A stretch of DNA of 47,305 nt from a virus: positions 1 to 47,305 of IMG/VR virus record IMGVR_UViG_3300021479_000028; one strand, written 5' to 3'. Position 1 is the stretch's first letter. Each line of letters starts with the position of its first letter. The notes beneath the pieces are model-generated. The model made no database searches. It was not told where the DNA came from and saw nothing but the letters and a program-made list of their open reading frames with translations. Shown here piece after piece: positions 16,419 through 47,305 of the stretch. A program made the position numbers and the translations under genes.

Positions 16419-16505
16419 TTACCAGTAATAAATCGCCCGTAACTGACTGGTGATTTTGGCGAGCAAAGCGAGTCTGATAACTTCGTTCACTTGTTTTTCG
16501 GTCAT
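16419..16505 (-). CDS. Possible 28-aa helical micro-protein
   Basis: ATG 16505-16503 follows AAAGGATGAAA, a good ribosome site, nine bases after the preceding gene. The 28 codons (MTEKQVNEVIRLALLAKITS...) form an amphipathic helix ending IYYW and stop at the edge of the terminator. The sequence looks peptide-like but is very short. Confidence 0.4.
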   Translation of the reverse strand: MTEKQVNEVIRLALLAKITSQLRAIYYW

Positions 16506-16514
16506 TTTCATCCT

Positions 16515-16697: not shown

Positions 16698-16709
16698 TTT
16701 TCTGTTCTC

Positions 16710-16790
16710 CTAAAAACCGATGAACGAATGCCAATGCTGAATTGACAAGCCAAGCCAGAGAAGCGAACCAACAATTAGTGCAAGCTTCAT
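16710..16790 (-). CDS. Possible 26-aa membrane micro-protein
   Basis: ATG 16790-16788 begins two bases after the preceding stop codon. The 26 residues (MKLALIVGSLLWLGLSIQHW...) are one hydrophobic helix with a basic start. The ribosome site is weak, but translational coupling to the zinc-ribbon gene is possible. It could be a small membrane peptide. Confidence 0.5.
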   Translation of the reverse strand: MKLALIVGSLLWLGLSIQHWHSFIGF

Positions 16791-16792
16791 TT

Positions 16793-17038
16793 TCAGTCTA
16801 CACTTTCTGCATAATAGTCTGCGCTGACAGTTTTCATATTTGAACGAGTCTGTCTCCACTGGCCGACTCTTTCGACGCCATGCGCAGCAACGATTGAAAT
16901 GAAGTGTGCAGGCACTTCGTGATTCACCAGCTTTGAAGTAATCCCCAGGCAAGAATACTTCGCGGGAGTAGCACCGCACACTTGGCAATGCTCGCGGCGG
17001 TCGCTGTTCAGAGTGAGACAGATAGTGCACTCATACAT
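16793..17038 (-). CDS. Small zinc-ribbon protein, 81 aa
   Basis: ATG 17038 has GGAG eight bases upstream. A TTG six bases earlier would sit too close to that site. The N-terminus MYECTICLTLNSDRREHCQVCG has C-x2-C and C-x2-C pairs around residues 4-21, resembling a RanBP2/ribbon-type zinc knuckle. The remainder is a VPAHFISIVAAHGVERVGQW segment. The function is unknown. Confidence 0.75.
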   Translation of the reverse strand: MYECTICLTLNSDRREHCQVCGATPAKYSCLGITSKLVNHEVPAHFISIVAAHGVERVGQWRQTRSNMKTVSADYYAESVD

Positions 17039-17040
17039 TG

Positions 17041-17250
17041 TCAATTCTCCACTTGAAGCTTGATAGTAACATTGTCGCCATTGTCAGGAGTGAACGTCAG
17101 ATGGTATTCACCTATTTCTCGATAATTGCACTGACCATCCGGACGTGTAATACGTGTGAGCTGTCCTTCTGTATTGAGCGTTTCACGGATTACGCGTTGC
17201 GTAGTCACCCATAGCGGCGCTTGTTTGACACCGCTAATTCTGATAGTCAT
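17041..17250 (-). CDS. Hypothetical protein, 69 aa
   Basis: The product starts MTIRISGVKQAPLWVTTQRV and is all-beta in appearance, ending DNVTIKLQVEN. No family is recognised. It starts five bases after the first gene of the cluster ends. Confidence 0.75.
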   Translation of the reverse strand: MTIRISGVKQAPLWVTTQRVIRETLNTEGQLTRITRPDGQCNYREIGEYHLTFTPDNGDNVTIKLQVEN

Positions 17251-17255
17251 TTAGC

Positions 17256-17444
17256 TCACTCTCCTTCTGAGTTGATAACATCATGAAGGTAATCAAAAAT
17301 GGTATCGACTGCTGCCTTGAACCGCTTGTATTCTGAGTCATTAGCTTCGAGTGCTGCTCTCACTGTCCCTTCATGATTCTGTATCATCTTTGCAGCAGTG
17401 AAGATATCCTCTTTGACGACTGCGTAGCGTGAAGCTTTGTCCAT
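17256..17444 (-). CDS. Small helical protein, 62 aa (first gene of the leftward small cluster)
   Basis: The product (MDKASRYAVVKEDIFTAAKM...) is all-helical, with an acidic C-terminus. ATG 17444 has AAGGAAGG upstream. It is the first gene after the presumed leftward promoter near 17.57 kb. The function is unknown. Confidence 0.75.
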   Translation of the reverse strand: MDKASRYAVVKEDIFTAAKMIQNHEGTVRAALEANDSEYKRFKAAVDTIFDYLHDVINSEGE

Positions 17445-17552
17445 CTCTCACCTTCCTTGCTCTCTTATACTGCATTGCTTGTGCCACTGAAAACTTCAAT
17501 AGCGCAAACTCCATTCCAGGTTTTAGTGTTCTTTATTGAGAAAACGTGTTAT

Positions 17553-17580
17553 ATAATAGGACAGTTTAACTTGTTGTAAA
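17553..17580 (-). promoter_or_regulatory. Possible leftward promoter of the small-gene cluster
   Basis: On the minus strand TTTACA (17580-17575) and TATTAT (17558-17553) are separated by 16 bases. A 17-base alternative to ATTATA also exists. It lies about 110 bases ahead of the first gene at 17444. The boxes are weaker than those of the other promoters. Confidence 0.45.
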
Positions 17581-17795
17581 CAAAAGACTTAGCAGCTTTT
17601 GTATTGTATTGACACATCGCAAGATGTAGTGACACCCCAGGGACACCCCACCATATATTGTGGATGTTAAATACTTTACAGTGCGGACTATTGGTATATT
17701 ACTAGTGAATTTTAAGACAAACACTATAAAAATAAAAATGAAAAAATAAACGTCTGAACATTTCAGAATGTGCAAAAAGCCCAATGTTTTCGCTA

Positions 17796-17824
17796 TTGAC
17801 AAACTGCAAAGGGTGAGTTACACT
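17796..17824 (+). promoter_or_regulatory. Rightward sigma70-type promoter P3 of the late operon
   Basis: TTGACA (17796-17801) and TACACT (17819-17824) are separated by exactly 17 bases, with a predicted start near 17831. It lies 45 bases ahead of the first rightward gene. No strong promoter-like sequence was noticed further down the late operon. Confidence 0.83.
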
Positions 17825-17868
17825 GACCGTGAACAGGCGACGTGTAGTTTCACTACTGGAGAAATGAA

Positions 17869-18345
17869 ATGATTGTTTCTGATTCTGACGCTTTAAAGAG
17901 ACTTGATTCTCCTCTTAATCTGATAAATAAATTAAAAACTCACATATCCAAAGATAAACAACAGGCAATGGAACTCTTCACCGGGCCTCCAAGAAAGTCG
18001 AATTCATTTCCTATTGAGTTGCCAGTTGAATTGCCGTCTAAGCCGGCGGAGCCGAACCTAGACACAATTCTAGCAAACAATGAAAGTCAGATTAAACTTG
18101 GCTTAGCACATGACAAGTCATTAAGTCTTTTAGCTAAAGCCGTAGATATGTTAGACGCTAAACTGGATGATGTTTCTGCGTCAAAACTTCCACAAACAAT
18201 AATCGCCGCAAGCAAAGTCGTGGAAAGTATTAGAAAAGAAAGACTAGAATCTCTGAAGAATTCGAAAGACAGAGAAGTTCATTATCATTTCTATACGCCA
18301 GATCAGAAAGTGCTGGAGAATTATGAAGTGATAGAGGTTTCTTAA
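17869..18345 (+). CDS. Putative small terminase-like protein, 158 aa
   Basis: GGAG lies eight bases before ATG 17869. The protein is helical: an N-terminal part with Pro-rich linker (FPIELPVELPSKPAEP), then a long helix (SQIKLGLAHDKSLSLLAKAV) and a C-terminal VHYHFYTPDQKVLENYEVIEV. The general layout resembles small terminase or packaging-associated phage proteins. No helix-turn-helix is obvious, and TerL lies 2.7 kb away. Treat the function as tentative. Confidence 0.55.
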   Translation: MIVSDSDALKRLDSPLNLINKLKTHISKDKQQAMELFTGPPRKSNSFPIELPVELPSKPAEPNLDTILANNESQIKLGLAHDKSLSLLAKAVDMLDAKLDDVSASKLPQTIIAASKVVESIRKERLESLKNSKDREVHYHFYTPDQKVLENYEVIEVS

Positions 18346-18792
18346 ATGCCAGAATTAGATGGCGTAAAACGTCGTCTCTCAGATATCCAAGTTGATGTAG
18401 CTTCTAAACCATCAATAGTTCCAATCGCAAATAATCTCCCCTACATAGTAGCAGTAATTATGATGATGGTTATTGGTGTAGCTGGTGTTGTAATTATAAC
18501 GCTTGGTAGACCGAATCAAGATAACACTCAACTCATCACAACAATTTTAGGCTTTCTCGCACCGACAACTTTGAGTCTTCTCGCATTCATGAAAGCACAA
18601 GAGACGCACCTGTCGGTGAACTCAAGATTAGATGCATTCATGAGAAATGCTGAACTTGCGGCAAGAGTTCAAGGAGTAATAGAAGGAAGAAGTCAAGGAA
18701 GAGATGATGCGAACTTAAGAACTGATGCGTTAGCTCAACAATCTCCGACAAGAGTTGAAATCACAAACATTCCAAAATCGGAGTCACAATGA
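18346..18792 (+). CDS. Two-pass membrane protein, holin-like (148 aa)
   Basis: There are two hydrophobic segments, residues 31-54 (YIVAVIMMMVIGVAGVVIIT) and about 62-83, separated by a short polar loop. A charged helical tail follows (THLSVNSRLDAFMRNAELAA). A double-spanning protein with a charged C-terminus, immediately followed by another small two-pass membrane gene through an ATGA overlap, is a common lysis layout. No endolysin is adjacent, so the holin label is an inference. Confidence 0.75.
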   Translation: MPELDGVKRRLSDIQVDVASKPSIVPIANNLPYIVAVIMMMVIGVAGVVIITLGRPNQDNTQLITTILGFLAPTTLSLLAFMKAQETHLSVNSRLDAFMRNAELAARVQGVIEGRSQGRDDANLRTDALAQQSPTRVEITNIPKSESQ

Positions 18793-18980
18793 AAGCATTT
18801 CTTTGGCGCATTCTATATGCCGCAGTTTGTTTTATTTTATTCTGGATGGTGTTTCCTCTCTTTCTTGAAGTTATTCATGCACCGATTAATGGTTCTTTAG
18901 TAGAGTTAATGAGAATTGTGTCTATTGCTTTAGCGATTCTTTACGCTTTATTCGGTGGCACACCTCCGATGCCATTTTAA
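18789..18980 (+). CDS. Small two-pass membrane protein (63 aa)
   Basis: Residues 5-27 (LWRILYAAVCFILFWMVFPL) and 40-56 (LMRIVSIALAILYALFG) are hydrophobic. The gene starts within an ATGA overlap with the previous membrane gene, and the two may act together as a holin/antiholin-type pair. It is also similar in layout to generic small phage membrane proteins. A 105-base gap with only a 17-codon frame follows. Confidence 0.75.
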   Translation: MKAFLWRILYAAVCFILFWMVFPLFLEVIHAPINGSLVELMRIVSIALAILYALFGGTPPMPF

Positions 18981-19085
18981 AGTTGGTGAGTGCTGAGATA
19001 CACAGCAGTGAAAACCTACTGGGAACTTGTTATGAGGAAGTCTCAAGATTGCAGTAGCCACCTTTCTTATGTTTGGGGAACATAA

Positions 19086-19457
19086 ATGTCAACAATAGCA
19101 GCCGCAATGAGTGGTGTTCCAGTCAATCAGCAGACTGCTGGTGTTACAGGTAATGGAACAATTTTAGCATTACCTCCTAGTTTTAGAAATCATACGTGGA
19201 TAGTTACTGCGGCTGCTGGAGTGAGTGCTGGAGCAATAACAGTAGAAACATCTAATTCAGATAGTGACGCTGGAACATGGGCTGTAGTTCCAATGGCTAA
19301 TAGCATTGCAAATCCTTTAACAGTTGTTGCCGGTGCAGATTTAATGATGGAACATACTGGTTTGTTAAATTTTGTTAGAGCTAGAATTTCAACAACAATT
19401 TCAGGTGGAGGTGCTCCTTCTGTTACAGTTGTTTATGAGGGAGCAAAGAGTTACTGA
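19086..19457 (+). CDS. Beta-rich structural-type protein, 123 aa
   Basis: The protein is rich in Ala/Gly/Thr/Val with repeated short strands (TWIVTAAAGVSAGAITVETS), typical of phage head-decoration or fibre-type beta sandwiches. GGGGAAC lies ahead of ATG 19086. It resembles in composition the proteins at 36803-37171 and 29530-30153. The precise role is unknown. Confidence 0.75.
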   Translation: MSTIAAAMSGVPVNQQTAGVTGNGTILALPPSFRNHTWIVTAAAGVSAGAITVETSNSDSDAGTWAVVPMANSIANPLTVVAGADLMMEHTGLLNFVRARISTTISGGGAPSVTVVYEGAKSY

Positions 19458-19633
19458 TAATAGAAAAGAATAAGAATGAATTATTTAATGAAATCAAAAA
19501 GTTGTATTGGGATTTGGAAACATTTCCAAATGATATTAGACAATTATCTGAAGAACGACGTATTAGATATGAAGAGTTAATAAAACAGATTCGAATACTC
19601 GTGGACCAGTGGAAGTTGAAAAGAGTTGAATGA
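19454..19633 (+). CDS. Coiled-coil protein, 59 aa, apparent CTG start
   Basis: A strong helical frame (LIIEKNKNELFNEIKKLYWD ... LIKQIRILVDQWKLKRVE) begins at CTG 19454-19456, which overlaps the previous stop as CTGA. It ends at TGA 19631-19633, immediately before the next ATG. No ATG, GTG or good TTG exists near its 5' end. The GGGAG upstream is about ten bases away. This is the second CTGA-type start in the window. The function is unknown. Confidence 0.6.
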   Translation: MIIEKNKNELFNEIKKLYWDLETFPNDIRQLSEERRIRYEELIKQIRILVDQWKLKRVE

Positions 19634-20017
19634 ATGAAACGTTTCCTGCTCTTGGCAGTTCTCGTCACTTCGTTATTTCGCGCGAACACAGTGAGCGCGC
19701 AGACTACAATCATAGGACCAAATAGTTTATTTAGTTGGGATATGACAAATACGCCTTTAGCAACTGCTAATACATTAGTGTATACAATTACTGTAGATGC
19801 AACGGCTCCTAAAGTGCTAACTCCATTTACTTGTATTGGTAGTGTAACTGTTCTGACAACTACAACCTGTTCAGTTAATGCTATTGCAGCATTGCCAATG
19901 GGAACACATTCATTAACAATGACAGCCGCAAGCGGGGCTTTAGTCTCAGCTCCATCAGCATTGTATTCATACACTGTGATGTTAATCACAATTCCAACAA
20001 ATCTCAGGGTTCAGTAA
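19634..20017 (+). CDS. Secreted or periplasmic protein with signal peptide, 127 aa
   Basis: The N-terminus MKRFLLLAVLVTSLFRANTV is a textbook signal peptide (two basic residues, hydrophobic core), with a VSA site at residues 20-22. The mature part is a small beta-sandwich-like domain (SFTVTV-type strands, two Cys that could form a disulfide). Exported phage proteins are unusual in the late operon and often act on the cell surface, for example in superinfection exclusion or lysis. No family is recognised. Confidence 0.8.
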   Translation: MKRFLLLAVLVTSLFRANTVSAQTTIIGPNSLFSWDMTNTPLATANTLVYTITVDATAPKVLTPFTCIGSVTVLTTTTCSVNAIAALPMGTHSLTMTAASGALVSAPSALYSYTVMLITIPTNLRVQ

Positions 20018-20018
20018 T

Positions 20019-20288
20019 GTGAGTTGGGACGGTGTTGATAGGAGAGTTGGTCAACAGAGAGTTGGGCAAAGAAGACATCAAATTAGTATGAATAGATACA
20101 ACGAACAAGAAGTAATTGCTTTTCAACAGATTGTAATGGCTACATATCAGGAGGCTAACAAGCCTCTTGATCTTTCTAATGTAGTATGGGCTGCTCGTAT
20201 GACATATGATGCTATTACGATAGGATATTTGGCTAGCCAGAATAAACACTTAGCGGAGCTTCGGACAGAACTCGGATTGGGAGCATAA
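20019..20288 (+). CDS. Hypothetical protein, 89 aa, GTG start
   Basis: GTG 20019 follows the upstream stop and has AGGG upstream; an internal ATG (residue 24) has no site. The N-terminus is Arg/Gln-rich (MSWDGVDRRVGQQRVGQRRH), and the rest is helical (EVIAFQQIVMATYQEANKPL). No domain is recognised. It is one of several small genes leading to TerL. Confidence 0.7.
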   Translation: MSWDGVDRRVGQQRVGQRRHQISMNRYNEQEVIAFQQIVMATYQEANKPLDLSNVVWAARMTYDAITIGYLASQNKHLAELRTELGLGA

Positions 20289-20289
20289 A

Positions 20290-20622
20290 ATGGATTGGGC
20301 AAAGTTTGCAACTATCATCGAAGCCGTCTTGCCAGGTATTCTTTTCTCGGTGAATCCTGCATTTGGTTTCATTGCTAGTGATGTAGTAGCATTAGTTAAG
20401 AAGGTGGAAACGGCTGGAACCACTGGACAAGATAAATTGAATGCAGTAGTAATGGCAGCCGGAGACGTAGTTGACCAGGTAAATACTGCTTCTGGAAAGA
20501 TTGTTATCGATCCTTCATTGATTAAGACAGACCTTCCATTGGGTATAGCATTAGGAATTGATTTAGTTAATAAGATTGGTGGAAAGACTCCTGTGCCAGT
20601 TATTCTAAAGCCGACTGTCTGA
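20290..20622 (+). CDS. Small hydrophobic protein, 110 aa
   Basis: Residues 8-35 are hydrophobic (IIEAVLPGILFSVNPAFGFI) and could insert in a membrane. The remainder is amphipathic (KKVETAGTTGQDKLNAVVMA). It may be a lysis-associated or structural accessory protein. The function is unknown. Confidence 0.75.
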   Translation: MDWAKFATIIEAVLPGILFSVNPAFGFIASDVVALVKKVETAGTTGQDKLNAVVMAAGDVVDQVNTASGKIVIDPSLIKTDLPLGIALGIDLVNKIGGKTPVPVILKPTV

Positions 20623-20799
20623 ATGAGAAAAGAAGATGAAACGAGCATTGCATTTCGTGCTTCAAGATTCGTTGAAGCTCATATGTTCTGCCGCTGTGGG
20701 ATTCCAATTAGAGAATGTCTTCCAGAAGACATATCTCATCCAAAAGCTAAGAGTTTCTGCGGTAGATGTAAACTTCTAATTCGAGAAGAAGTGAAGTGA
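20623..20799 (+). CDS. Zinc-ribbon protein, 58 aa
   Basis: ATG 20623 follows the upstream stop by one base. The product (MRKEDETSIAFRASRFVEAH...) carries CRCGIPIREC and CGRC, four or five cysteines in zinc-ribbon spacing. It ends with a GTGA overlap into the next gene. It may be a small nucleic-acid-binding accessory factor for packaging, by position only. Confidence 0.75.
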   Translation: MRKEDETSIAFRASRFVEAHMFCRCGIPIRECLPEDISHPKAKSFCGRCKLLIREEVK

Positions 20800-21056
20800 A
20801 CGTTCCGAGTGTATTATTTATTGAATTAGCTCTTGATTCATTTGATACACTTGGTGTGAAGTTTATGATGGATGAGATTAGAGAATTTCGTAAACTTCCA
20901 TCAGAGAGCTTAGATAAGTTGATAGAGGAGTTACCTATTACATGGAAAGATAATACGGCTGGATACACAGACATAGAAAGGGGATATTTGTTAGGGTTGC
21001 AAACGGCTAATATGATGCTCCTTTCATTTTTCAAATATGAATCATTAAAGAAGTAA
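20796..21056 (+). CDS. Helical protein directly upstream of TerL, 86 aa
   Basis: GTG 20796 overlaps the upstream stop as GTGA. The chain is helical and acidic (MMDEIREFRKLPSESLDKLI). Its stop overlaps the TerL start as TAATG. A small terminase often precedes the large one, so it is an alternative TerS candidate, but it lacks a recognisable DNA-binding domain. Confidence 0.7.
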   Translation: MNVPSVLFIELALDSFDTLGVKFMMDEIREFRKLPSESLDKLIEELPITWKDNTAGYTDIERGYLLGLQTANMMLLSFFKYESLKK

Positions 21057-22732
21057 TGAATATTTCACTTTCTGATCCTGGTAATGGATTATACGAAGAT
21101 TTTGTCCGTGAGAAAAATATAAAACCTCATCCAGTTCAAGAAGAGCTTTTACAATTACCTGATCAAATCTTTGAGGCTTTATATGGCGGAGCGGCATACG
21201 GTGGTAAAAGTTGGATACTCACATTGCTTCCTTTATTTAGAGGATTCTATAAGTTTCGTGGGTTCAAGGGGATTATCTTCAGACGCAAATTTCCTGACTT
21301 GGAAAAAGAGATTATCCGTCTCTCAAAAGAATACTATCCCAAGACGGGAGCGAAGTATAACGAACAGAAACATAGTTGGGAATGGCCAGAATTTAACTCT
21401 TATCAAGACTTTGGACACGTCCAACACGACTCTGATATAAGTCAGTATGATAGTTCTCAATACAATTATTGTGCATTTGATGAATTGACACATTTCAGTG
21501 CTCACCCCTATCACTACATGGTTGGCTCTCGTGTTCGTCCTAGTAGTTCTTTCAATATCGCTTTTGTGCGAAATGGCTCTAATCCTGGTGGCATTGGTCA
21601 AACGTTTGTTTATAATCGTTTCGTCCGTCCGCATGAAGATGGACATAAAGTTATAAGAGATGTTAATACTGGACTCTTACGAATTTTCATTCCGGCGAAA
21701 GCAGAAGATAATCCATATGGAATGGAATATGATCCTCTTTATGTTAAGAAACTTGAAATCCTCAAACAAGTAAGTGAAGCCGAATATAGAGCTAAACGGT
21801 GGGGAGATTGGCACGCTTTCAAAGGTTCAGTCTTTACAAGTTTTAGACCAATGCGATTTCCTGGTGAACCAGATAATGCATTGCATGTTATACCACGTTT
21901 TCAGATCCCAGAATGGTGGCCCAGAATATTGTCAATTGACTGGGGAAAGCGTGCGATGTGCTATGCGATGTGGGGAGCCGTTAGTCCAAGTCATAAGGTT
22001 TATGTATACAGAGAACGAGCTTGGTATGGACGTGATGTTGCCTTCTGGGCAAGTGAAATAAGACAAATTCATAATGAGAATGGCGAAATGCCTGCTCATA
22101 CCGTCTTGTGCGGAAGTGCTTGGCAGAATAGAGGCGGTGAATTGATTTGTGATGAGTTTCAGAAATATTCTGATTTGGTTCCTTCAAGTTCTGAAAACAC
22201 ATCCGGAAGCCGCGTCGCTGGAATACAACTGATTCATGATTTTTTAAGGTGGGAAAAGAAAGCAACTTTGATATCAAAAGGTGAATTCTATGACATGCAG
22301 TTAGCGCAGGAAATCTATAGGAAATATGGTCCGGAAGCATTAGAAGCTTATAAGAAACAGTTTTATGATGAGCCAGAAGAAGAGAATCTTCCAATCCTAC
22401 AGATATTCGATAATTGTAAAACTCTTATAGATACGATTCCATTAGCAATGTATGATGAGAAGAAGGTTGAAGACGTTGCTGAATTTGAGGGAGATGATCC
22501 CTTAGATGATCTTCGATACTTCTGTAAGGCTGCAAAGAGGTTCATTTCCGGAGAGATTACAGGACTGGACGTTGCGGCTAAGAAACAAGTTGTAATTCAG
22601 AAATATCAAGAGAATGGAGATATGACAGCTTTTTATCGACAACTCGAGAAAATTGAGAGCGAGAATCGAGCTTCGCTCGCAGATTGTTTGCCTGTTTCAC
22701 GAAGGTCAAGGTTTGCAAGGAGAATGCACTAA
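21056..22732 (+). CDS. terL: Terminase large subunit
   Basis: The 558-aa protein has an ATPase Walker A loop GGAAYGGKS at residues 44-52 and a Walker B CAFDE ending at D142-E143. A C-terminal nuclease half begins with ILSIDWG near residue 300 and has further acidic residues downstream. Large terminases translocate DNA into the procapsid and cut the concatemer. The start overlaps the previous stop as TAATG. It is full length and intact. The packaging mode (headful or cohesive end) cannot be read here, although the circular-looking map favours permuted ends. Confidence 0.95.
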   Translation: MNISLSDPGNGLYEDFVREKNIKPHPVQEELLQLPDQIFEALYGGAAYGGKSWILTLLPLFRGFYKFRGFKGIIFRRKFPDLEKEIIRLSKEYYPKTGAKYNEQKHSWEWPEFNSYQDFGHVQHDSDISQYDSSQYNYCAFDELTHFSAHPYHYMVGSRVRPSSSFNIAFVRNGSNPGGIGQTFVYNRFVRPHEDGHKVIRDVNTGLLRIFIPAKAEDNPYGMEYDPLYVKKLEILKQVSEAEYRAKRWGDWHAFKGSVFTSFRPMRFPGEPDNALHVIPRFQIPEWWPRILSIDWGKRAMCYAMWGAVSPSHKVYVYRERAWYGRDVAFWASEIRQIHNENGEMPAHTVLCGSAWQNRGGELICDEFQKYSDLVPSSSENTSGSRVAGIQLIHDFLRWEKKATLISKGEFYDMQLAQEIYRKYGPEALEAYKKQFYDEPEEENLPILQIFDNCKTLIDTIPLAMYDEKKVEDVAEFEGDDPLDDLRYFCKAAKRFISGEITGLDVAAKKQVVIQKYQENGDMTAFYRQLEKIESENRASLADCLPVSRRSRFARRMH

Positions 22733-27845: not shown

Positions 27846-29099
27846 ATGCCAGGTGCTGTAGTAGAATCAGTTGTTGCTGGTACAGAACTCGAAAAGGTGC
27901 TGCCGAAGGTGACCACTGTTTTTGAAAGTGACGACACGTTTTTCGGTAATATTAAGAAGAGAGATGTTGAGATAGTTAGCTATCGTGAGATGCGTGCTCC
28001 AATGGAATTAAGGCCAGGAGGACGTTTTCAATATTTTAACCCTGATGGTGGAGATATGGGACGAGGCGGCGGTCCAACTTGGGACAAAGCCGTTTTGCGC
28101 CCAGTTTTTCTATCAGAGAATATTGAATATACGAAATTAACTCAGTGGAGCACTGATGATCGTAGAAAGAGTGTTATAAATGCTGTTCGTAGATTAACTG
28201 CAGGTGCGACAGTAGAAATTAAAAGACAATTAGATGCCCAGCTTCAGGGAACTGGAACTGGACAAGTAGGAACTATTATTGCCGTAACAACGGCAGGTGG
28301 AGTTGATACATATACATTAGATGCAGAATTTGGTGCTCGACTTGTTCGATACGATCAAGTTGTGCAGATATTTGATACTACCCTTTCTATTTTCCGTGGC
28401 AAAGGTGTTGTTACATTATGGGACGTTGAGAATAAGCAAATTAGTGTAACTCCAGCTATTCCTGGTGCTGTTGCAACTGATGTGTTAATTGTAGATGGAT
28501 TAACAAATCCTACAGCACTTCCTGGTCTTTACGGAGTGCCATATCATCACTCTAATGCTTCTACTGGAACATGGTTAGGATATGATAGGGCAACTACACC
28601 AGAAATTCGAGCGAATCGTGTTAATGGTGGAAATAGTGCTCTAACGCTTCCGTTGCCAAGACTAGCAATTAACAAGATTGGTAATAGAGTTGGTATTGAC
28701 AATAACTTCGATCCTCATGCTTGGACACATCCTTGTCAAGCACAAGCTTATGAAGAAATTGGTCAATTAATCTCTATTATTCATAAAGCACCAAAAGATG
28801 AAAGTTTGAATCTTTACTTTGGTGATAATATGCAGTTAGCCGGAGCGCCCATTAAACAGCACTTTAATTGGAGTAAAAAAAGAATAGATTTCGTCGTCAG
28901 CTCAATCTGGGGCAGAGCGGAAATTCTTCCTATCGGATTTTATACGTCCGATGGTCGGAGAATTTTTGAATTGCGCGGAGCGAGCGGTGGCGTAGCTGCT
29001 GCGGATATCTTTTACATGGTTGTTGGGTTCCAAACATTTGTTTTAAACCCAGCCGCAACCGCTTACATCGATCAATTAGCCATACCAAGCGGATATTAG
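27846..29099 (+). CDS. Major capsid protein (probable)
   Basis: The 417-aa chain has GGGPTWDKAVLRPVF and a long central segment, and follows the scaffold. Position, length and balanced beta/alpha composition fit an HK97-fold capsid protein. ATG 27846 is three bases after the scaffold stop, with GAGGGATT upstream. No cleavage site or decoration domain is evident. Confidence 0.85.
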   Translation: MPGAVVESVVAGTELEKVLPKVTTVFESDDTFFGNIKKRDVEIVSYREMRAPMELRPGGRFQYFNPDGGDMGRGGGPTWDKAVLRPVFLSENIEYTKLTQWSTDDRRKSVINAVRRLTAGATVEIKRQLDAQLQGTGTGQVGTIIAVTTAGGVDTYTLDAEFGARLVRYDQVVQIFDTTLSIFRGKGVVTLWDVENKQISVTPAIPGAVATDVLIVDGLTNPTALPGLYGVPYHHSNASTGTWLGYDRATTPEIRANRVNGGNSALTLPLPRLAINKIGNRVGIDNNFDPHAWTHPCQAQAYEEIGQLISIIHKAPKDESLNLYFGDNMQLAGAPIKQHFNWSKKRIDFVVSSIWGRAEILPIGFYTSDGRRIFELRGASGGVAAADIFYMVVGFQTFVLNPAATAYIDQLAIPSGY

Positions 29100-30506: not shown

Positions 30507-31181
30507 ATGTCATTAGGTTCCATTGCCGGTTCGGTAACACCAGCGTTGAGCGTTTTACCCGTTACAAGTAGAGATACTGGATTAGGTGATTCTGCTAACT
30601 ATTATGTAGCTTCTAATCCTACACCTGGTACTGGTATTATTACAGGCCATCCCACCACACTGGTGAGTACGACGCCTGCACTAATACTATTTAATGGAGG
30701 TTTGTTAAACGTTTATCTTCTGTGGATGAGACTTGGAATTACGGTAGCTAGCACAGGTAACGTAACCAATACGAATTTCTCACATAGTATTGATGCTGGT
30801 AATAGGAATTTGGGTAATACAGCCGGAACGGCTCTAACCATTAACAATACAAATATTATGTCTAACTCTAAGTCTTCTGTGCAAGCCACATTTGGTGCTA
30901 TTACAGGTGCTACTGCTGCATCTAGTAACGAGCGTATTATGGGTAATGATTGGTTTAGAGTTGCTTTGATTGATATTGTTGGTGATGTCTATGAATGGCA
31001 ATATGGAACTCCTGCAATGGTGGGTGTTGGTTCAACTCCTGCAACAGTCTGTAACTTTATCAGGAGTGCTCCTGCTATTGTTTTACAGCCGCAAAGCTCA
31101 TACGTGTTGAATGTCTGGGCTCCAACTACATTTACAACTGGTATCACCTTCGAAGTCCAGATCGGCTTTGCTGAAAAGTGA
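30507..31181 (+). CDS. Beta-rich structural protein, 224 aa (paralogue of the next gene)
   Basis: The protein starts MSLGSIAGSVTPALSVLPVT and shares a long segment with the following gene: RDTGLGDSANYYVA, LVSTTPAL...FNGGLLNVYL, GNDWFRVAL, VGDVYEWQYG and LQPQSSYVLN. It is composed of short beta strands, probably forming an oligomeric head- or tail-surface protein. The tandem pair suggests duplication and divergence. Confidence 0.82.
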   Translation: MSLGSIAGSVTPALSVLPVTSRDTGLGDSANYYVASNPTPGTGIITGHPTTLVSTTPALILFNGGLLNVYLLWMRLGITVASTGNVTNTNFSHSIDAGNRNLGNTAGTALTINNTNIMSNSKSSVQATFGAITGATAASSNERIMGNDWFRVALIDIVGDVYEWQYGTPAMVGVGSTPATVCNFIRSAPAIVLQPQSSYVLNVWAPTTFTTGITFEVQIGFAEK

Positions 31182-31199: not shown

Positions 31200-31844
31200 A
31201 TGTCATTAGGAAGTCCGTCAGCATTAAGTGTTGTTCCTGTTACTGGTAGAGATACTGGTCTTGGTGACTCTGCTAACTATTATGTTGCTGTTACTGCTAC
31301 ACCTGGCACTGGTCAGGTTACTGGTAACCCAACATCTCTTGTTAGCACTACACCAGCTTTAGTTGTATTCAATGGTGGATTGCTAAACGTATATCTAATC
31401 TATCTCCGCCTCTCCTCGACTGTAGTCGGTGGTGGTGCTGCAACTAAACAGTTTACACATCAAGTAGATCAGGGTAATAGATTTACATCTGGTGGTGCTG
31501 CTCTTACAATTAATAACACAAATATGATGGCTAATGCTAAGTCATCTGTTCAGGCTAACTTTGGTGCTATTACTGCTACAGCTCAGACTGCTAACGTTCG
31601 TAACTTAGGAAATGATTGGTTTAGGGTTGCGTTAGCTGATGTTGTTGGTGATGTCTATGAATTTCAATATGGTTCTTGTATGGGTGATGCAGTTGGTTCT
31701 TCACCTGCTACAGTTGCTAACTTCTGTCATATTGCTCCGGCTGTTGTATTGCAGCCGCAGAGTTCGTATTTGCTAAATATTTGGTCTGCTACATTTTCTG
31801 CTGGTATTACATTTGAAGTTGAATTAGCTTTCGCGGAGAAGTAA
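31200..31844 (+). CDS. Beta-rich structural protein, 214 aa (paralogue of the previous gene)
   Basis: This is about 10 residues shorter than its neighbour and very similar in order and motifs. It begins MSLGSPSALSVVPVTGRDTG and has GNDWFRVALADVVGDVYEFQ and LQPQSSYLLNIWSATF. AAGGAG precedes ATG 31200. A 15-bp hairpin follows, suggesting a transcript boundary after a highly expressed gene pair. The function is unknown. Confidence 0.82.
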   Translation: MSLGSPSALSVVPVTGRDTGLGDSANYYVAVTATPGTGQVTGNPTSLVSTTPALVVFNGGLLNVYLIYLRLSSTVVGGGAATKQFTHQVDQGNRFTSGGAALTINNTNMMANAKSSVQANFGAITATAQTANVRNLGNDWFRVALADVVGDVYEFQYGSCMGDAVGSSPATVANFCHIAPAVVLQPQSSYLLNIWSATFSAGITFEVELAFAEK

Positions 31845-38747: not shown

Positions 38748-39080
38748 ATGGCAGCAACAACAGATACACAAATGGCTCTAGCCGCAGACAGCAAGTTTAT
38801 TAGACGCTTAGCAGCTTTATTTAATCTAGAAGCTCAAGTTGTAATTGCTGAACCACCAGCAACAACTAATCATATTCTACGTAGACAGTTAGCTCAATCA
38901 TGTATTACTGGTGGATTAATGGTATCATCTCAATTTGCTCTAACTATAGCATTATCAACAAATCTGATGGCTGCTAACACGACATATGATTTTATTCAGT
39001 TAGCCGTAGTCACTGATGCAACTGATGCTGCTATTAGATCTGAAATTGCTACACTCTGGAATGGATTTGCTGGAGTTTAA
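38748..39080 (+). CDS. Small late protein, 110 aa
   Basis: The product (MAATTDTQMALAADSKFIRR) is helical with hydrophobic patches and a LATFNLEAQV-type section. AAAGG lies upstream of ATG 38748. It may be a small virion protein between the fibre and the ejection-type proteins. No family is recognised. Confidence 0.7.
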   Translation: MAATTDTQMALAADSKFIRRLAALFNLEAQVVIAEPPATTNHILRRQLAQSCITGGLMVSSQFALTIALSTNLMAANTTYDFIQLAVVTDATDAAIRSEIATLWNGFAGV

Positions 39081-39081
39081 G

Positions 39082-39981
39082 ATGGCTGGAGTTGCAAGCA
39101 ATATCGACCCAAATACACTGTTTGGTGGTAATATGAGAAATACTAGTGGATTTGGCAATCCAATGCCAACTTCTCAATACGGTAATCCTGCTACATTTAC
39201 GGCAGCCGCTAACACCCAAGCTAAAGACTATGATACTATAATGAAGCAGTATGCTGATTTTACTGCTAATGCTGCCGCAAGACCATTAACGGCTCAGAAT
39301 GTCAGTACTGGAAGTATTGCACCACAGACGGCTGGATATCAACAATCGGCTGATGTTACTAGCTCATTAGCTGGATTGAAAGATTTATCGGCAACTGGCG
39401 GATACACATCTCAAGGAATTGCAGATATTAGAGAAAGAGACATATCCCCTACGCGGAGCGTATATGCAAATGCTCAGCAGAATGTTGAAAGACAGAAAGC
39501 ACTTGGTGGTGGTTACTCGCCAAACTATAATGCTACACAAGAACAGATGGCTAGAGATGAATCTAATCAAATAGCTGGGATAGATACAGCCGCTAACGCC
39601 GGAATTGCTCAGAATGTTGCCGCAAACAGATTAGCTGCGGCAAGTCCATACGCTGCGGCTAGTTCAAGTGCAAATGCAGCGCAAACTCAAAATAATCAAT
39701 TCAATGCGAATGCATATAATACAGTTAATGAAGCTAATGCAAATAGAAACTTAGAAGCTGGAACTGGTAACGCGAATAGGAATCTAGCTGCTCAAGGTCA
39801 GAATTATGGAAACATTCTTGCCGGAATACAAGGACAAACGAATTTATATGGGACTACTCCAGCTCTCACTAATACGTTTGGCAATCAAGTCTCTAATGCA
39901 GCACAATTAGGACAAGGACAACAGAATATAAATCAACGAGATAACCAAAATCTGTGGAGTAATGTTGGGAGGTTTGCATAA
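39082..39981 (+). CDS. Low-complexity virion protein, probable ejection protein 1 (299 aa)
   Basis: ATG 39082 with GGAG seven bases upstream is preferred over an earlier in-frame ATG that would overlap the previous gene by 65 bases. The protein is very rich in Ala/Asn/Gln/Gly (NANAYNTVNEANANRNLEAG), with a central helix (AQQNVERQKAL). This composition and position match podovirus internal or ejected proteins such as P22 gp7/gp20 or T7 gp14. The function is inferred from composition and position. Confidence 0.65.
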   Translation: MAGVASNIDPNTLFGGNMRNTSGFGNPMPTSQYGNPATFTAAANTQAKDYDTIMKQYADFTANAAARPLTAQNVSTGSIAPQTAGYQQSADVTSSLAGLKDLSATGGYTSQGIADIRERDISPTRSVYANAQQNVERQKALGGGYSPNYNATQEQMARDESNQIAGIDTAANAGIAQNVAANRLAAASPYAAASSSANAAQTQNNQFNANAYNTVNEANANRNLEAGTGNANRNLAAQGQNYGNILAGIQGQTNLYGTTPALTNTFGNQVSNAAQLGQGQQNINQRDNQNLWSNVGRFA

Positions 39982-40895
39982 TGAGCTTCATAGATAATCT
40001 TGCTGCTAGTCCGGCTGGTGGAATTTATGGACAGCCAGGACAGCAAAATAATCAAAATGATGTTTTAGGTATTGTAAACCAATTAAAAGATCGTGAAATG
40101 CGAGACTTTCAGAATAAAGCTAATTTCATGTCAGATTTATCTGTGAAGCAAGATAGGTTAAAACAGCTATTTAGCCCAGAAACGGCTTCTGGTATTCCAG
40201 GTTCAAATGCTCAAACGGCTAATGGTCCCGTTGGCGGTCCTTCAATGCAACAAGGCGGAATGAATGTACAGATGGGTAAGACAGAACAAGATCCCAATCA
40301 ATTAAATGCTGCCCAAAGAGCTGAAATGTCTATGAAGCAGCAAGGAATGGGTCTTGAACAGCAGAAGATAGCACAAGCCGGAAAGATGGGTGAAGAACGG
40401 CTTGGGATACAAAAATCTCAAGAGCAACTAAATGCTAAAAAAGAAGGTGATATACATGAAAACGCTCAAGCTAAATTACAAGCCAAAATTGAAGAATCTA
40501 ACGGTAAATTAGAACAAGCCCAAGCTGCTTTGGAAGCTAAAACTGCATCTGGAGATGCTGCACTAAAAGAACATCAAGCTCTTAAAGATGCTATGACAGA
40601 AAGACATAAGCTAGAATTGGCTCAAGGTCAAGCAAAATTAGATCAAAAAGATGCAGAATTTAAGGTTCTTCAAGGACAGCACGACGAATTAATAAAACAG
40701 CGTGGACACACGACTGAAACTAAGAAAGATGCACAAGGAAACGCAATAACTACAGATACTACTAGAGGCAGTGCCGCTAACATGGTAAACATGAAAGGAA
40801 GAGATGGCAAGACATATCCAGTTCCGGCTGATAAAGCTGAAGAAGCTAAGACTCATCCTTTCTTTCAGCAAGCTGATGAAAGAGAACAGCAATGA
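39981..40895 (+). CDS. Gln-rich coiled-coil protein, probable ejection protein 2 (304 aa)
   Basis: The start overlaps the previous stop as TAATG. The N-terminal third is Gln/Gly/Asn-rich (GQPGQQNNQNDVLGIVNQLK). A long charged coiled coil (KIEESNGKLEQAQAALEAKT) occupies residues about 150-230, and a C-terminal GRDGKTYPVPADKAEEAKTH follows. It ends in an ATGA overlap with the deoxyhypusine-synthase-like gene, so the two are co-translated. It is probably an internal virion protein. Confidence 0.7.
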   Translation: MSFIDNLAASPAGGIYGQPGQQNNQNDVLGIVNQLKDREMRDFQNKANFMSDLSVKQDRLKQLFSPETASGIPGSNAQTANGPVGGPSMQQGGMNVQMGKTEQDPNQLNAAQRAEMSMKQQGMGLEQQKIAQAGKMGEERLGIQKSQEQLNAKKEGDIHENAQAKLQAKIEESNGKLEQAQAALEAKTASGDAALKEHQALKDAMTERHKLELAQGQAKLDQKDAEFKVLQGQHDELIKQRGHTTETKKDAQGNAITTDTTRGSAANMVNMKGRDGKTYPVPADKAEEAKTHPFFQQADEREQQ

Positions 40896-41896
40896 TACCG
40901 CGAGATACGAAGAAATCAATAGAAGTTAAACTTTCTGGTCCTACAGCTAAGCTCCTAAAAAGAGATTTTCACTCCTATAATGCAAAATATGTTAGAGAAG
41001 CTACATATGCATATAAGCACTTATTAGATACAGGTGGTAAGATGTTTGTAGCTCTAGCGGGCGCTATGTCCACCGCGAGAGTGGGAATTTCTCTAGCCGC
41101 AATGATACGAAAAGGATACGTCAGCGGTTTATCTGTTACGGGTGCAAACCTCGAAGAAGATGTATTCAATTTAATCGGAAGAGATGATTATATAGATATT
41201 CCAGATTATAAGGATACGACGCCTGAAGATGATGAGAAATTAGGAAAGAAGAAGTTTGTTAGAATTTATGAAGATGTAGTTCCACCTGAAGTGATGAAGA
41301 AAGTTGAAGATGCTATTCTCACTAAATGGAAGAATGCTGCTCTCGGTAATGAAAGAAAGTTCCCACACGAATTTCTCTGCGAGTTATTGCTGGATGGTGC
41401 TCTAAAACAGTATTATCAAATTGACCCGGCCGAATCATGGCTGCTTGCGGCTGCTGAAATGAAGATTCCTATAGTCACTCCTGGCTGGGAAGATAGCACT
41501 TTGGGTAATGTGTTTACGGCTATGGTTAGAGAGATGGAAGTTGATGTTCATATTATGAAGACTGGTATTGAAGCTATGAATTACCTTGCTGATTGGTATT
41601 TAATGGAAAAAGCAGAAAAAGGCTTCTTTCAAATTGGTGGTGGCATTGCAGGTGATTTTCCTATTTGTGTAGTTCCTTTCTTAAAACAAGATTGTCATAT
41701 GGGTGATAAAGTTAAACATTGGGCTTATTTCTGTCAGATAACTGATGCTGAAGTGTCGTATGGCGGATATAGTGGTGCTGAGCCAAATGAAAAGATTACT
41801 TGGAATAAAATCTCGAAGAAGACGCCTAAATTCGTCATTAAATCTGATGCCACTATTGTAGTCCCTCTCATGTTCGACGCAATTTTAGGATTATAA
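40892..41896 (+). CDS. Deoxyhypusine-synthase-family enzyme
   Basis: The 334-aa protein is full length for bacterial deoxyhypusine synthase-like proteins. By eye it carries the family signatures in order: ALAGAMSTARVGISLA (54-69), TGANLEEDVFNLIG (83-96, NAD-binding), FPHEFLCELL, PGWEDSTLGN (197-206), TGIEAMNYLADWY, FFQIGGGIAGDFPICV (245-260), SYGGYSGAEPNEKITW and SDATIVVPLMF. The lysine of the WNK motif (K306) matches the catalytic lysine of eukaryotic enzymes. These enzymes use NAD and a polyamine to transfer an aminobutyl group to a lysine, or in related forms to another amine. Substrate here is unknown. It is coupled by ATGA to the preceding virion gene. Confidence 0.93.
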   Translation: MIPRDTKKSIEVKLSGPTAKLLKRDFHSYNAKYVREATYAYKHLLDTGGKMFVALAGAMSTARVGISLAAMIRKGYVSGLSVTGANLEEDVFNLIGRDDYIDIPDYKDTTPEDDEKLGKKKFVRIYEDVVPPEVMKKVEDAILTKWKNAALGNERKFPHEFLCELLLDGALKQYYQIDPAESWLLAAAEMKIPIVTPGWEDSTLGNVFTAMVREMEVDVHIMKTGIEAMNYLADWYLMEKAEKGFFQIGGGIAGDFPICVVPFLKQDCHMGDKVKHWAYFCQITDAEVSYGGYSGAEPNEKITWNKISKKTPKFVIKSDATIVVPLMFDAILGL

Positions 41897-44800
41897 ATGC
41901 CTCGTCCTTTTAGACAGCCTGTTTCAGATGAAATAGAGCCGCCAGATTATGTCGGCAAACCTATTGAAGAATCAGAATCGAAGCCTCCATCATATGCTGG
42001 AACTCCAATAGATGAAAAGAAGAAAGAACCAACTAAACCAATAAAGGCTAGTGGTCCTGGATATGCTTATCAGGCAGCTCATCCAGAAGAAAGAAAGCCT
42101 TTTGATACCAGTCCTTTAGGTTGGAGAAGTGCTTTAAATAAATTTACTAGTCCATTAACAGAAGCTCCAACTCGCTTCGCTGAATCAGTCTCAAAACACA
42201 TTAATCCACAAAGTGAAACTAAAGGAATTAGGGGAGTTAGTTCTGCATATGTCGAAGGATTAGGTCATGCTGTTAGTGATTTAACCTCTCCAATTAATTT
42301 AGCATTAGTTGCTGCTCCACCTGGAGTTGGTAAAGCTATCGGAGTTGGAATGGTTGGTCATGGTGCATATAGAACTACTAGAGGAATAATGGAAGGTGAT
42401 CCAGAAGAAGCTATTAGTGGAGCTGTAGAAGGTGGATTAGGATATCTCGGCGCTAGAGGACATATTACTCCTTCTGCTAAAACAGAGAAAGAACATCCTC
42501 CAATTCGACAAGAGAGAGTAATTAATCCAGCCGATAAAAATATTAAATTCTCCACTAAAGCTGAAGCTGATGCTGCTAAACCTGTTGAAGATCAAAATAG
42601 AATGGCCGTTCCGGCTGAACTTGGACCAGAAGCTTTTACACCCAAAGATTATAAACAACCTGATATAGCGAGAAAAGCAGGCGTAAAGCCTCCGATGACT
42701 CGCGATGAAGAACAAGCTGCTTATGAAGCAATGAAAGGTGGCTTTGATAGAAGAGATGCAGATAAAGCTTCTCGTCCTCGTGATGCTGCTCCGCAGGAAG
42801 AAATTCCTGAAATACAGAATAATCCATTTAAAGGAAAGAAGCCTGCTATAACTGAGGATATTAAACCAACTGAAGAAATAAAGCCACCTGATTACGCAGG
42901 AGAACCTTTAGAACGTGAACAACCTGCTGATATTAAACTAAATAACGCTGCACAGACTTCACCTGAGAACCTAAAGAAATTAAATGAATTTATGGATTCT
43001 GCTGCTCCGAAAGGTGAGCAGAGTGTTGAACAGATTAGAGATTCTCTTAATAAGCCTGAAGAACAAGGTTTATCTGTTAGACAGCCAGTTGTAGATGCTA
43101 TTGTCGATGGAGAACCTCCTGTAAAACAATCTAATCATATTGTAACTAATGTTAAATTACCAGAAGGTGTAGGATTTGAGAAGGTAACTCCTGAACCAAA
43201 ATATAATGAAGAACCAAAGATTTTTGAAGGAGAAGTAATAAAGTCTGAGGATGCTGGGAAATCACCAGAATTGGCAACTGCTGGAACACCTCAACGTCCA
43301 AGTTTTTTTAGTGATGACAGGGGTGAATTAAATATAGATTCTATCAAGAACTTCATGAGTTCAGTCTATCAGAAACTAACTGGAAAGACACCTGTTAAAG
43401 ACATCGTTGAAGAACTAAAAAAGACTACTCCAGAGATCGATGATTCGAAAGGTGGCAAGACTGTTAGTGCTGTAATGAAACTTTTTACAGGATTAGAAGA
43501 TGCTAGAGGTTCTATGGAGAAGCAATCATCCCTTTATAAGCAAGAAAGAGCACAACGCTTCGCGGAATCGGCTAGTGTTAAAGAAGGTGGTTCTTTAGGT
43601 GCTGCAAAGTCATTATCTAAAATGAAGGGTGAATACGAGCAAGTTAATCCTGGTGAAAGACTTCATTTAGACCAGGGAGAAACGGATTCTTTGTTTGACT
43701 CAATTAAAGCAGCGAAGCTGACGGAAGCAGAGAAGATTAATGCTCGTTTCTCGATGTTTAAACTTCTTAATGGAGATAAGACATTAAATCGTTCTGAACT
43801 TTCAGTTCTCGATAACGTATTCGGAAACGGCTTTGCTAATAAAATCGTGGAAATGCACGGAGGACTCGGCGCTGTTGGATTGAAGTTGGGCAAAACGGCT
43901 AATACGATGAAATCCATGCTTAATTCTGTGAACATAGCCGCACCCATCTTACACGGTTTGCCGCTAAGCTCTCATCCATTAATTTACACAAAGGCTGCTG
44001 CTAACATGGTCAAGTTTATGGCTAATAAAGATGCATACAATGCGGCTATGACTGCCATTGAGGAAAGACCGAATTATGTTCCCTGGAGAGATGCTGGATT
44101 GTTTATTGCCAAGCCTGAATCTATTACTGCTTCAGAAGAAGACTTCGCTCGGAGTTATGTCAGATTCATTCCCGGTGTTAGAGATATTATCGCAGTCTCT
44201 AAAAGAGGATATACAGGCTTCTTGAATGAATTACGTTCAAAGACTGCTGATTTGCTGGAGAAGAACGCCAAAGATCAAGGATTAGAGGTATTTGAGAATA
44301 TTAAGGTTAAAGATAAAAAGGGTAACTTCGTAACAGATGAAAAAGGAAATGTTAAAACAGAAAAACGTCCAACAGAGATTGCCAAAAACATCGCTAAATA
44401 TATCAATAATGCAACTGATCGTGGAAGTCTTGGAAAACTAGAGAAGATAGCTCCTGAATTGAATTATCTCTTATGGAGTCCTAGAAGGCTAACGGCTAGG
44501 GCGACTATGCTTAATCCAATGTTTTATGCTAAATTAGATCCGTTTACAAGAAGAGAGGCATTAAAGAGTTTATTTGCACAAGCAGCTATTGGAACTTCTA
44601 TGGTGAGTTTAGGTGTTCTAGCTGGTGGCAAAACTTCATTAGATCCATCTAATTCAGATTTTGGCAAGGTTCGATTCGGCTCTCATACGTTAAATCCACT
44701 TGGACCTACACAGAGTCTAGTCGTAGCTGCAACTAAAGCAATAAAAGAACTTCATAGAATGGGTTCTGGTGAAAAGGCTAAATTCGGCGAACAGAACATT

Positions 44801-45160
44801 CCAGAGATAGCAGGAGGTCTAATTCGTAATCGTGAATCTCCAATCGTTCGATTAGCTGATGAAATTGCAACGGCTAAACAGTTCACTACTGACAGCAAAG
44901 ATAAAGACAGAGGAATGCTAGAACATGGCGGCTTTATTAATAGGTTTGGTGATAAGAAATATATCTCAAATGAAGTTAGGAATAGTTTTATTCCTATCTT
45001 CATTCAAGATGTCGAAGATTTACTGAAATCTGACGCCAGCTTCGCTGAATCTATTGGACTCGGTGCGGCTAGCTTCGTTGGAGTAAGCGAACAAAATTCT
45101 CCTATTCGCAAGAAGAAAGGATTATTGAATTTGAGAGGAATGCGGACCTTAAAGCCTTAG
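41897..45160 (+). CDS. Very large late protein, probable ejection/internal virion protein (1087 aa)
   Basis: It starts right after the preceding stop. Residues 1-45 and about 330-345 contain PPxYxGxP repeats (PPDYVGKPIEE, PPSYAGTPIDE, PPDYAGEPLER). The next several hundred residues are Pro/Glu/Lys-rich and probably disordered, with NNPFKGKKP. The C-terminal half is helical, with a hydrophobic stretch (SLFAQAAIGTSMVSLGVLAG). No lysozyme or transglycosylase motif is visible. Size, position and partners fit the large internal/ejection protein of podoviruses. The stop overlaps the convergent gene on the other strand. Confidence 0.75.
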   Translation: MPRPFRQPVSDEIEPPDYVGKPIEESESKPPSYAGTPIDEKKKEPTKPIKASGPGYAYQAAHPEERKPFDTSPLGWRSALNKFTSPLTEAPTRFAESVSKHINPQSETKGIRGVSSAYVEGLGHAVSDLTSPINLALVAAPPGVGKAIGVGMVGHGAYRTTRGIMEGDPEEAISGAVEGGLGYLGARGHITPSAKTEKEHPPIRQERVINPADKNIKFSTKAEADAAKPVEDQNRMAVPAELGPEAFTPKDYKQPDIARKAGVKPPMTRDEEQAAYEAMKGGFDRRDADKASRPRDAAPQEEIPEIQNNPFKGKKPAITEDIKPTEEIKPPDYAGEPLEREQPADIKLNNAAQTSPENLKKLNEFMDSAAPKGEQSVEQIRDSLNKPEEQGLSVRQPVVDAIVDGEPPVKQSNHIVTNVKLPEGVGFEKVTPEPKYNEEPKIFEGEVIKSEDAGKSPELATAGTPQRPSFFSDDRGELNIDSIKNFMSSVYQKLTGKTPVKDIVEELKKTTPEIDDSKGGKTVSAVMKLFTGLEDARGSMEKQSSLYKQERAQRFAESASVKEGGSLGAAKSLSKMKGEYEQVNPGERLHLDQGETDSLFDSIKAAKLTEAEKINARFSMFKLLNGDKTLNRSELSVLDNVFGNGFANKIVEMHGGLGAVGLKLGKTANTMKSMLNSVNIAAPILHGLPLSSHPLIYTKAAANMVKFMANKDAYNAAMTAIEERPNYVPWRDAGLFIAKPESITASEEDFARSYVRFIPGVRDIIAVSKRGYTGFLNELRSKTADLLEKNAKDQGLEVFENIKVKDKKGNFVTDEKGNVKTEKRPTEIAKNIAKYINNATDRGSLGKLEKIAPELNYLLWSPRRLTARATMLNPMFYAKLDPFTRREALKSLFAQAAIGTSMVSLGVLAGGKTSLDPSNSDFGKVRFGSHTLNPLGPTQSLVVAATKAIKELHRMGSGEKAKFGEQNIPEIAGGLIRNRESPIVRLADEIATAKQFTTDSKDKDRGMLEHGGFINRFGDKKYISNEVRNSFIPIFIQDVEDLLKSDASFAESIGLGAASFVGVSEQNSPIRKKKGLLNLRGMRTLKP

Positions 45161-46016: not shown

Positions 46017-46216
46017 TTCTCCTCCAAGTGATCTCTAATTGCTTTGGACAATTCTAGTAGATGTTCTTTTGAAATCCAAATGTTAACTGTTCCTGATGAA
46101 GGACTGATAGTATTATCTACTCTAAAAATATAAGTTTCTTTGTTTTCTCCCTCTGAATAATTTGTTATTGTAAATAGTCCATTGATAGTTCTTACTCCAG
46201 TCGATTTCGTAATCAT
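46013..46216 (-). CDS. Small hypothetical protein, 67 aa
   Basis: GGAGAGAAAG lies before ATG 46216. The protein is beta-rich in its first 45 residues (NGLFTITNYSEGENKETYIF) and ends in a helix (KEHLLELSKAIRDHLEEK). It is coupled by ATGA overlaps to both the DUF3987-like ATPase and the MazG-like gene. No family is recognised. Confidence 0.75.
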   Translation of the reverse strand: MITKSTGVRTINGLFTITNYSEGENKETYIFRVDNTISPSSGTVNIWISKEHLLELSKAIRDHLEEK

Positions 46217-47305
46217 CTTTCTCTCCTAAATTTATCCAAGTTCTCTTTCGGTGTTCCTGATAATTTATACAGATAATCTATATTCTTTCCTACTCCAATC
46301 CTTTCTCTTTTCACCCAAGTCATTTCTTGAAGTGCGTCAATTATCCTATCTAGAACACTTGGATCGAAATCACCAAATCCTCTCTGTAACAAATCTCTCC
46401 GCAATATTTGATTTCCCTCTGCTGCGATTAATATGTCCATCACCTTTCGAGTAGCTAAGGCGAGAGGATCTATTCCATTACCTTCTGCAACTTTAACACT
46501 CGCGTAAATCAATCCAGTAATCTTTTGTATAGCCTCATTTATGTCACTCTCTATGATGATTCCATGATTTTCATAACGAGACAAGCACAAGCACATTGCC
46601 GTCTTTAAAACATGATCAGGAACGCGAGAAATAAACCCAGTTTTATCATTATACTTCGTTTCATCTATTCTCCACTTCGTTCTCCACGTATTATAGAGCT
46701 TTCTTGCTCCTTCTTCTGGTATTAACCTCATTTTATTACTTGCGATGTTAACTAAGTGTGGAACATATTGGGGAATTGCTTTGTCAATAAACCAGTTGTT
46801 ATCTGTGTTATCACCTTCAGGATTCAATAATTCTAAGTCTCTAGCTCTCTTTTCTTCATATATTACTAGGTTACGTCCTATATAACCTCCTTGTATATTA
46901 TGTTGTGGAATTGAATTGTAAAAATGAGCAGGAGATGACCCAAACAAGCAAGTGAAATACGGCTCTTTTAGTCTTTCAGCTCCATCACCTTTTAGAAGAT
47001 TAACCCAAGGTTTATCGTGATAGTTTCTATCAAAAAGATCGGTTAAAATTTCTAAGGCTTGTGGGTCTCCTATGATTGCTGAAGATAACTCTCCATTTAT
47101 TACTGCTGCTCTTGAGTCTGTAATAATTGCTTTTCCTGGTGTTGATCTCGTTGTTGATGCTTCTTTGATTATCGCTTGAATAGAACTTCTTCCTGCAATA
47201 ACTCTAGTAACATCTGCTTCGAGAAGAAACCGTTTAGCCAAATTAACTGGGTACCCTTTTCCTTTTCCGCTATCACCGAGAAGAATAATATATACATTCG
47301 GATAA
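46213..47305 (-). CDS. DUF3987-like replicative ATPase, P-loop and C-terminal part (gene cut by the window edge)
   Basis: The frame is open from the right window edge: YPNVYIILLGDSGKGKGYPV gives a P-loop (GDSGKGKG), followed by RVIAGRSSIQAIIKEAS, then KAIITDSRAAVINGELSSAI and the long helical C-terminal half. The TTG inside this frame at 47241 is not the real start. This is the layout of DUF3987-type helicase/primase ATPases in phage replication operons. The N-terminal 47 residues lie at the opposite end of the window (1-142). The full protein is about 411 aa. Confidence 0.88.
   Translation of the reverse strand, partial: YPNVYIILLGDSGKGKGYPVNLAKRFLLEADVTRVIAGRSSIQAIIKEASTTRSTPGKAIITDSRAAVINGELSSAIIGDPQALEILTDLFDRNYHDKPWVNLLKGDGAERLKEPYFTCLFGSSPAHFYNSIPQHNIQGGYIGRNLVIYEEKRARDLELLNPEGDNTDNNWFIDKAIPQYVPHLVNIASNKMRLIPEEGARKLYNTWRTKWRIDETKYNDKTGFISRVPDHVLKTAMCLCLSRYENHGIIIESDINEAIQKITGLIYASVKVAEGNGIDPLALATRKVMDILIAAEGNQILRRDLLQRGFGDFDPSVLDRIIDALQEMTWVKRERIGVGKNIDYLYKLSGTPKENLDKFRRER

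Follow-up and report, generated by a model that had tools for sequence, protein, structure and literature searches.

A deoxyhypusine-synthase-family gene at a fixed late site in a phage lineage, with a proposed role in polyamine synthesis

The IMG/VR virus contig IMGVR_UViG_3300021479_000028 (47,305 bases; this whole stretch is called the window here) carries a gene of the deoxyhypusine synthase (DHS) family among its late genes. We find that it is a selected accessory gene that has been repeatedly gained or lost at one fixed late site. At a probability of roughly 0.62, we propose that its product belongs to the DHS/SpeY superfamily and is a catalytically competent, NAD-dependent aminobutyl transferase, which late in infection would use host diamines to form homospermidine or a similar polyamine. 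We regard the finding as a known enzyme family adapted to phages and not as a new kind of system.

Results

A complete DHS-family protein

The gene (40892-41896, plus strand) encodes 334 amino acids, which the initial annotation read as a complete DHS-family enzyme; profile and structural comparisons bear this out. The Pfam profile PF01916 matches the protein from position 10 to 286 of 288 (E=2e-40), scoring 139 bits where the curated cut-off is 27 bits. An AlphaFold model built with 34 aligned homologues (mean pLDDT 92.7, pTM 0.91) has the DHS fold of this family, and every top match that Foldseek listed in the PDB is a deoxyhypusine synthase (E about 1e-15, TM about 0.74). The NAD-binding motif TGANLEED lies at residues 83-90 and the catalytic lysine in WNK is kept as K306, both as first annotated. 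Specifically, K329, W327, E323 and S317 of human DHS align with K306, W304, E300 and S294, and human D238, E137 and D342 align with D201, E89 and D319; this mapping comes from sequence alignment, not from measurement on the model coordinates. The fold, the NAD motif region, the W-x-K lysine and the equivalents of Glu323, Trp327 and Ser317 are thus features that the protein has in common with human DHPS and archaeal DHS.

Such a protein is unusual in phages, as the initial annotation had supposed. PHROGs holds no family for it, a tblastn search of 50,697 phage records gave no match, and the BFVD viral structure library gave no match to the model at E <= 0.001. A 2023 survey by BLASTP reported no SpeY and no DHS homologue in viruses or phages (PMC9992855), and our literature search found no later report of a viral DHS or SpeY.

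The window is a genuine phage genome

The window encodes a terminase large subunit (21056-22732, plus strand, phrog_979), a major head protein (27846-29099, plus strand, phrog_14242), a family A DNA polymerase with an N-terminal uracil-DNA-glycosylase-superfamily domain (1386-3863, minus strand) and a primase-like protein (46213-47241, minus strand, phrog_14296), and is a genuine phage genome. Other genes include an SNF2 helicase, a Sak4-like annealing protein, an exonuclease and MazG. The polymerase and primase genes, which served as lineage markers, lie at opposite ends of the contig and are adjacent in relatives; this suggests that the genome is circularly permuted and nearly complete. By polymerase, the closest cultured phages are only about 26% identical, and the search for cultured relatives with the major head protein gave no match. 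A host search with one lineage marker, covering 396 genomes of Bacteroidota and 396 of Acidobacteriota, was likewise empty. A foreign base composition of the DHS-family gene was considered and rejected, as its GC content (0.387) equals that of the window (0.388).

Two sets of duplicated genes were also seen in the window. Three paralogues that are 46-52% identical (880-1386, 7898-8350 and 9269-9727, minus strand) are scattered among the early genes; their conserved Cys/His motifs (NPEHL-type, and a C-terminal CPxC) mark them as possible HNH-like nucleases. Among the late genes, 30507-31181 and 31200-31844 (plus strand) are a tandem duplication with 65% identity.

The late genes, including the DHS-family gene, occupy the plus strand from about 21 to 45 kb. 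The start of the DHS-family gene at 40892 overlaps the stop of a gene for a 304-residue coiled-coil-like protein (39981-40895, plus strand) as ATGA, and the reading frame of a 1087-residue late protein (41897-45160, plus strand) begins immediately past its stop, so that both junctions described in the initial annotation are present. Two genes upstream, a 321-residue protein (39016-39981, plus strand) is a conserved marker of the slot. The description of this region as a virion operon holds for the plus late strand overall; for the two direct neighbours, which have no profile match in Pfam or PHROGs, a virion role is for that reason only presumed.

Patchy presence at one late site

A scan of IMG/VR with the single protein sequence found nothing; homologues emerged only with an alignment that included distant homologues, which returned 53 loci. 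In ten related contigs from six IMG data sets (58-72% identity), the upstream neighbour is a homologue of 39981-40895, and in nine of these the downstream neighbour is a homologue of 41897-45160, the tenth contig ending inside the gene. The recurrence of the same neighbours in ten further contigs means that the gene's presence is neither chance nor an assembly artefact, both of which we reject. More distant phages (L016 and L044) also carry a DHS-like gene.

Scans of IMG/VR with the two lineage markers gathered sister phages, seven of which (L140, L141, L143, L145, L162, L171 and L182) have both flanking genes and no DHS-family gene; a DS domain was found nowhere else in these seven records. 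In L143, L171 and L182 no gene separates the two flanks, and the site is empty. Because it is absent from seven sisters, with its flanks adjoining in three, we class the gene as accessory and its site as fixed. It lies within a phage genome, is patchy among relatives and keeps to one site, the pattern of a phage auxiliary metabolic gene. On a tree of polymerase and primase, its presence requires six changes, at least four of which are forced by well-supported branches. With dN/dS of about 0.04-0.12 (NG86, with dS saturated), the gene is under purifying selection.

These results bear on the idea that catalysis has been lost and that the protein serves as a virion or structural component. The gene does adjoin probable virion genes; against this, the catalytic and NAD-site positions common to the bacterial enzymes are all kept across the phages and purifying selection is strong, which together make a purely structural role highly improbable.

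DHS-like genes in other phage lineages

Genes of this family also lie near virion genes in other phages. In L015, L029 and L050 the DHS-like gene is upstream of a capsid gene (an SU10-type major capsid protein in L015), in L048 it follows a tail-protein gene, and in L022 it is beside a virion structural gene. These podophage-type members and the window group fall on one side of a branch that separates them from every bacterial sequence and from the remaining phage sequences (SH-aLRT 96 in a quick tree; 84/98 in a careful tree). The podophage-type members form a phage-specific clade. In the L048 contig, a 2403-residue polyvalent protein with an ADP-ribosyltransferase domain (13471-20682) is encoded downstream of the DHS-like gene.

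In the careful tree, the other phage groups are nested within bacterial sequences, most of them from Bacteroidota, which points to several acquisitions. Contigs of 116-464 kb (L023, L024 and L028) and of 97 kb (L034) contain terminase genes, and we therefore regard them as phages; L023, L024 and L028 encode a SpeD-family protein. In the phage-type contigs L017, L023, L024, L026/L027 and L046, a speD homologue lies no more than a few kb from the DHS-like gene, and the pair is a putative two-gene phage polyamine module. The pairing of speY and speD is known in bacteria and archaea (PMC10407285). Seven further loci (L051-L057) were not counted as phage evidence; they have an ordinary SpeY-type speY-arginase-speD cluster and are probably cellular (archaeal or SAR11-like). 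In L042, a contig classed as viral, a DHS-like gene of the phage/bacterial subfamily is directly beside an arginase-family gene.

The speD pairing is relevant to another reading, in which the enzyme consumes host spermidine or NAD to disturb physiology or defence and the product is irrelevant. A lone enzyme in the window phage, with no pathway partners and an accessory, patchy distribution, would fit this. However, the gene is on the late strand and not among the early genes, and its pairing with speD in large phages suggests synthesis; we consider host disturbance very improbable.

Active-site differences from named enzymes

Despite the aforementioned similarities, the protein differs from human DHPS at three aligned active-site positions. 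His288, a catalytic residue in DHS (PMC7226451), is replaced by Asp255, Asp316 by Tyr293 and Asp243 by Asn206. All three changes are common to the bacterial relatives compared, whereas the His288, Asp316 and Asp243 positions are occupied by Asn, Leu/Cys and Phe in other SpeY/CdmS-type sequences. Profile scores give a similar picture. The protein scores 92.7 bits against the DHS equivalog TIGR00321 (cut-off 304), with other PRK DHS models also far below theirs; the best-scoring NCBIfam model, NF001980 (PRK00770), gives 122.9 bits (cut-off 450) and the caldomycin synthase model NF002699 gives 79.3 bits (cut-off 500). Phage and bacterial members of the subfamily miss every NCBIfam equivalog cut-off, so the subfamily is without a name there, and since the window protein falls far short of all the DHS equivalog cut-offs, the name deoxyhypusine synthase is unsuitable. 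DHS also has an IF5A-type substrate and the window phage encodes none; a search of 21 viral records that carry a DHS-family gene, some of which are fragmentary, gave no IF5A/EF-P homologue (PF08207). On equivalog score, on the residue aligned with His288 and on a phage-encoded IF5A substrate, the protein fails as DHS in the strict sense, and to judge from its sequence it is not a classical deoxyhypusine synthase.

Bacterial relatives and their polyamine genes

The closest relatives outside phages belong to an unnamed bacterial DHS-like subfamily found in Bacteroidota, Acidobacteriota, Verrucomicrobiota, Bdellovibrionota, Woeseia and others. Its members are 49-54% identical to the phage protein and identical in nearly all active-site columns compared. 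They are chromosomal and at times lie in polyamine operons, whereas the podophage-type members lie in virion gene clusters and form a clade of their own. Eight bacterial genomes were checked, and in all of them the relative is the sole DS-family gene. Some relatives belong to operons that are complete for putrescine: that of Woeseia (L080) reads agmatine deiminase, DHS-like, arginine decarboxylase, N-carbamoylputrescine amidohydrolase, and that of Salinimicrobium (L118) reads arginine decarboxylase, agmatinase, DHS-like. Of the 80 bacterial loci, 8 have arginine decarboxylase nearby, 4 have agmatine deiminase and 3 have N-carbamoylputrescine amidohydrolase. A putrescine-pathway gene context, taken here as a mark of SpeY, is therefore seen for the subfamily in a minority of its bacterial loci.

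SpeY enzymes are DHS homologues that make homospermidine and cluster with SpeD-derived decarboxylases (PMC10407285). The window protein shares the superfamily with SpeY, and its relatives share the putrescine-pathway clusters; it differs from the SpeY-type sequences compared, which have Asn and Phe at the 288 and 243 positions, and against NF001980, the model for SpeY, it scores 123 bits where 450 are required. A polyamine synthase of other specificity, such as one that couples two agmatines in the manner of caldomycin synthase or makes another unusual polyamine, would draw on some of the same evidence. The related CdmS of Thermus, which has the catalytic lysine and fold family in common with the window protein, joins two agmatines (PMC10981699), and arginine decarboxylase, a source of agmatine, lies beside bacterial relatives. 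Yet CdmS has Phe204 and Leu286 (PMC10981699) where the window protein has Asn206 and Tyr293, the caldomycin-type model scores 79 of 500 bits, and neighbours that convert agmatine to putrescine point to putrescine as the substrate. We regard this alternative as unlikely.

Of the three roles that the initial annotation had offered, polyamine making is clearly favoured, by the agmatine/putrescine operons of bacterial relatives with about 50% identity and by the speD pairing in jumbo-type phages. A deoxyhypusine-like modification, in which a lysine of a phage virion protein or of a host protein receives the aminobutyl group, would match the chemistry of true DHS, the fixed position among late genes with coupling to a coiled-coil-like neighbour, and the phage-only clade of podophage-type members. 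Positive evidence for it was not found: the phages lack an IF5A/EF-P homologue, the human His288 and Asp316 are replaced, the bacterial relatives sit in small-polyamine operons, and sister phages retain the neighbour without the enzyme. Protein modification is thus improbable. A reading confined to the phage-specific clade, retained with virion genes in several phage lineages, in which its enzymes either place a deoxyhypusine-like aminobutyl group on a virion or ejected protein or make a polyamine specifically for condensing packaged DNA, is one that we hold to be doubtful.

Discussion

From this evidence we infer the activity, substrate, product, timing and benefit of the phage enzyme as follows. 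The favoured reading, synthesis of a small polyamine, has the DHS-like gene expressed together with the late (virion) genes. By analogy with DHS chemistry, NAD would oxidise a bound polyamine, and the 4-aminobutyl group would be held on K306 as an imine, passed to an amine acceptor and reduced again. The acceptor would most likely be a small diamine (putrescine) and not a protein lysine, in which case the reaction would yield homospermidine or a close analogue. The window phage appears to encode the last step alone and would take putrescine or spermidine from its host; the polyamine formed may then act as a counter-ion in DNA packaging, or in translation late in infection.

Several observations count against this proposal. 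Most of the 80 bacterial loci lack neighbouring polyamine genes, no NCBIfam homospermidine model was passed (123/450 bits), and family searches gave no further polyamine enzyme for the window phage: neither a PLP decarboxylase nor an AdoMet decarboxylase was found in it, and arginase, looked for in its relatives only, was absent there.

Phages are already known to encode polyamine enzymes, including HSS, SpeD/ODC/ADC and spermidine synthase (PMC9992855), but these belong to families non-homologous to DHS. The DHS family is now seen in several unrelated phage lineages, as a large phage-only clade in virion gene clusters and as separate captures among bacterial sequences. How phages obtain the polyamines used in packaging and translation is a long-standing question, for which these results name genes that can be tested; they also draw attention to a bacterial subfamily of DHS-like proteins that is widespread, uncharacterised and altered in its active site.
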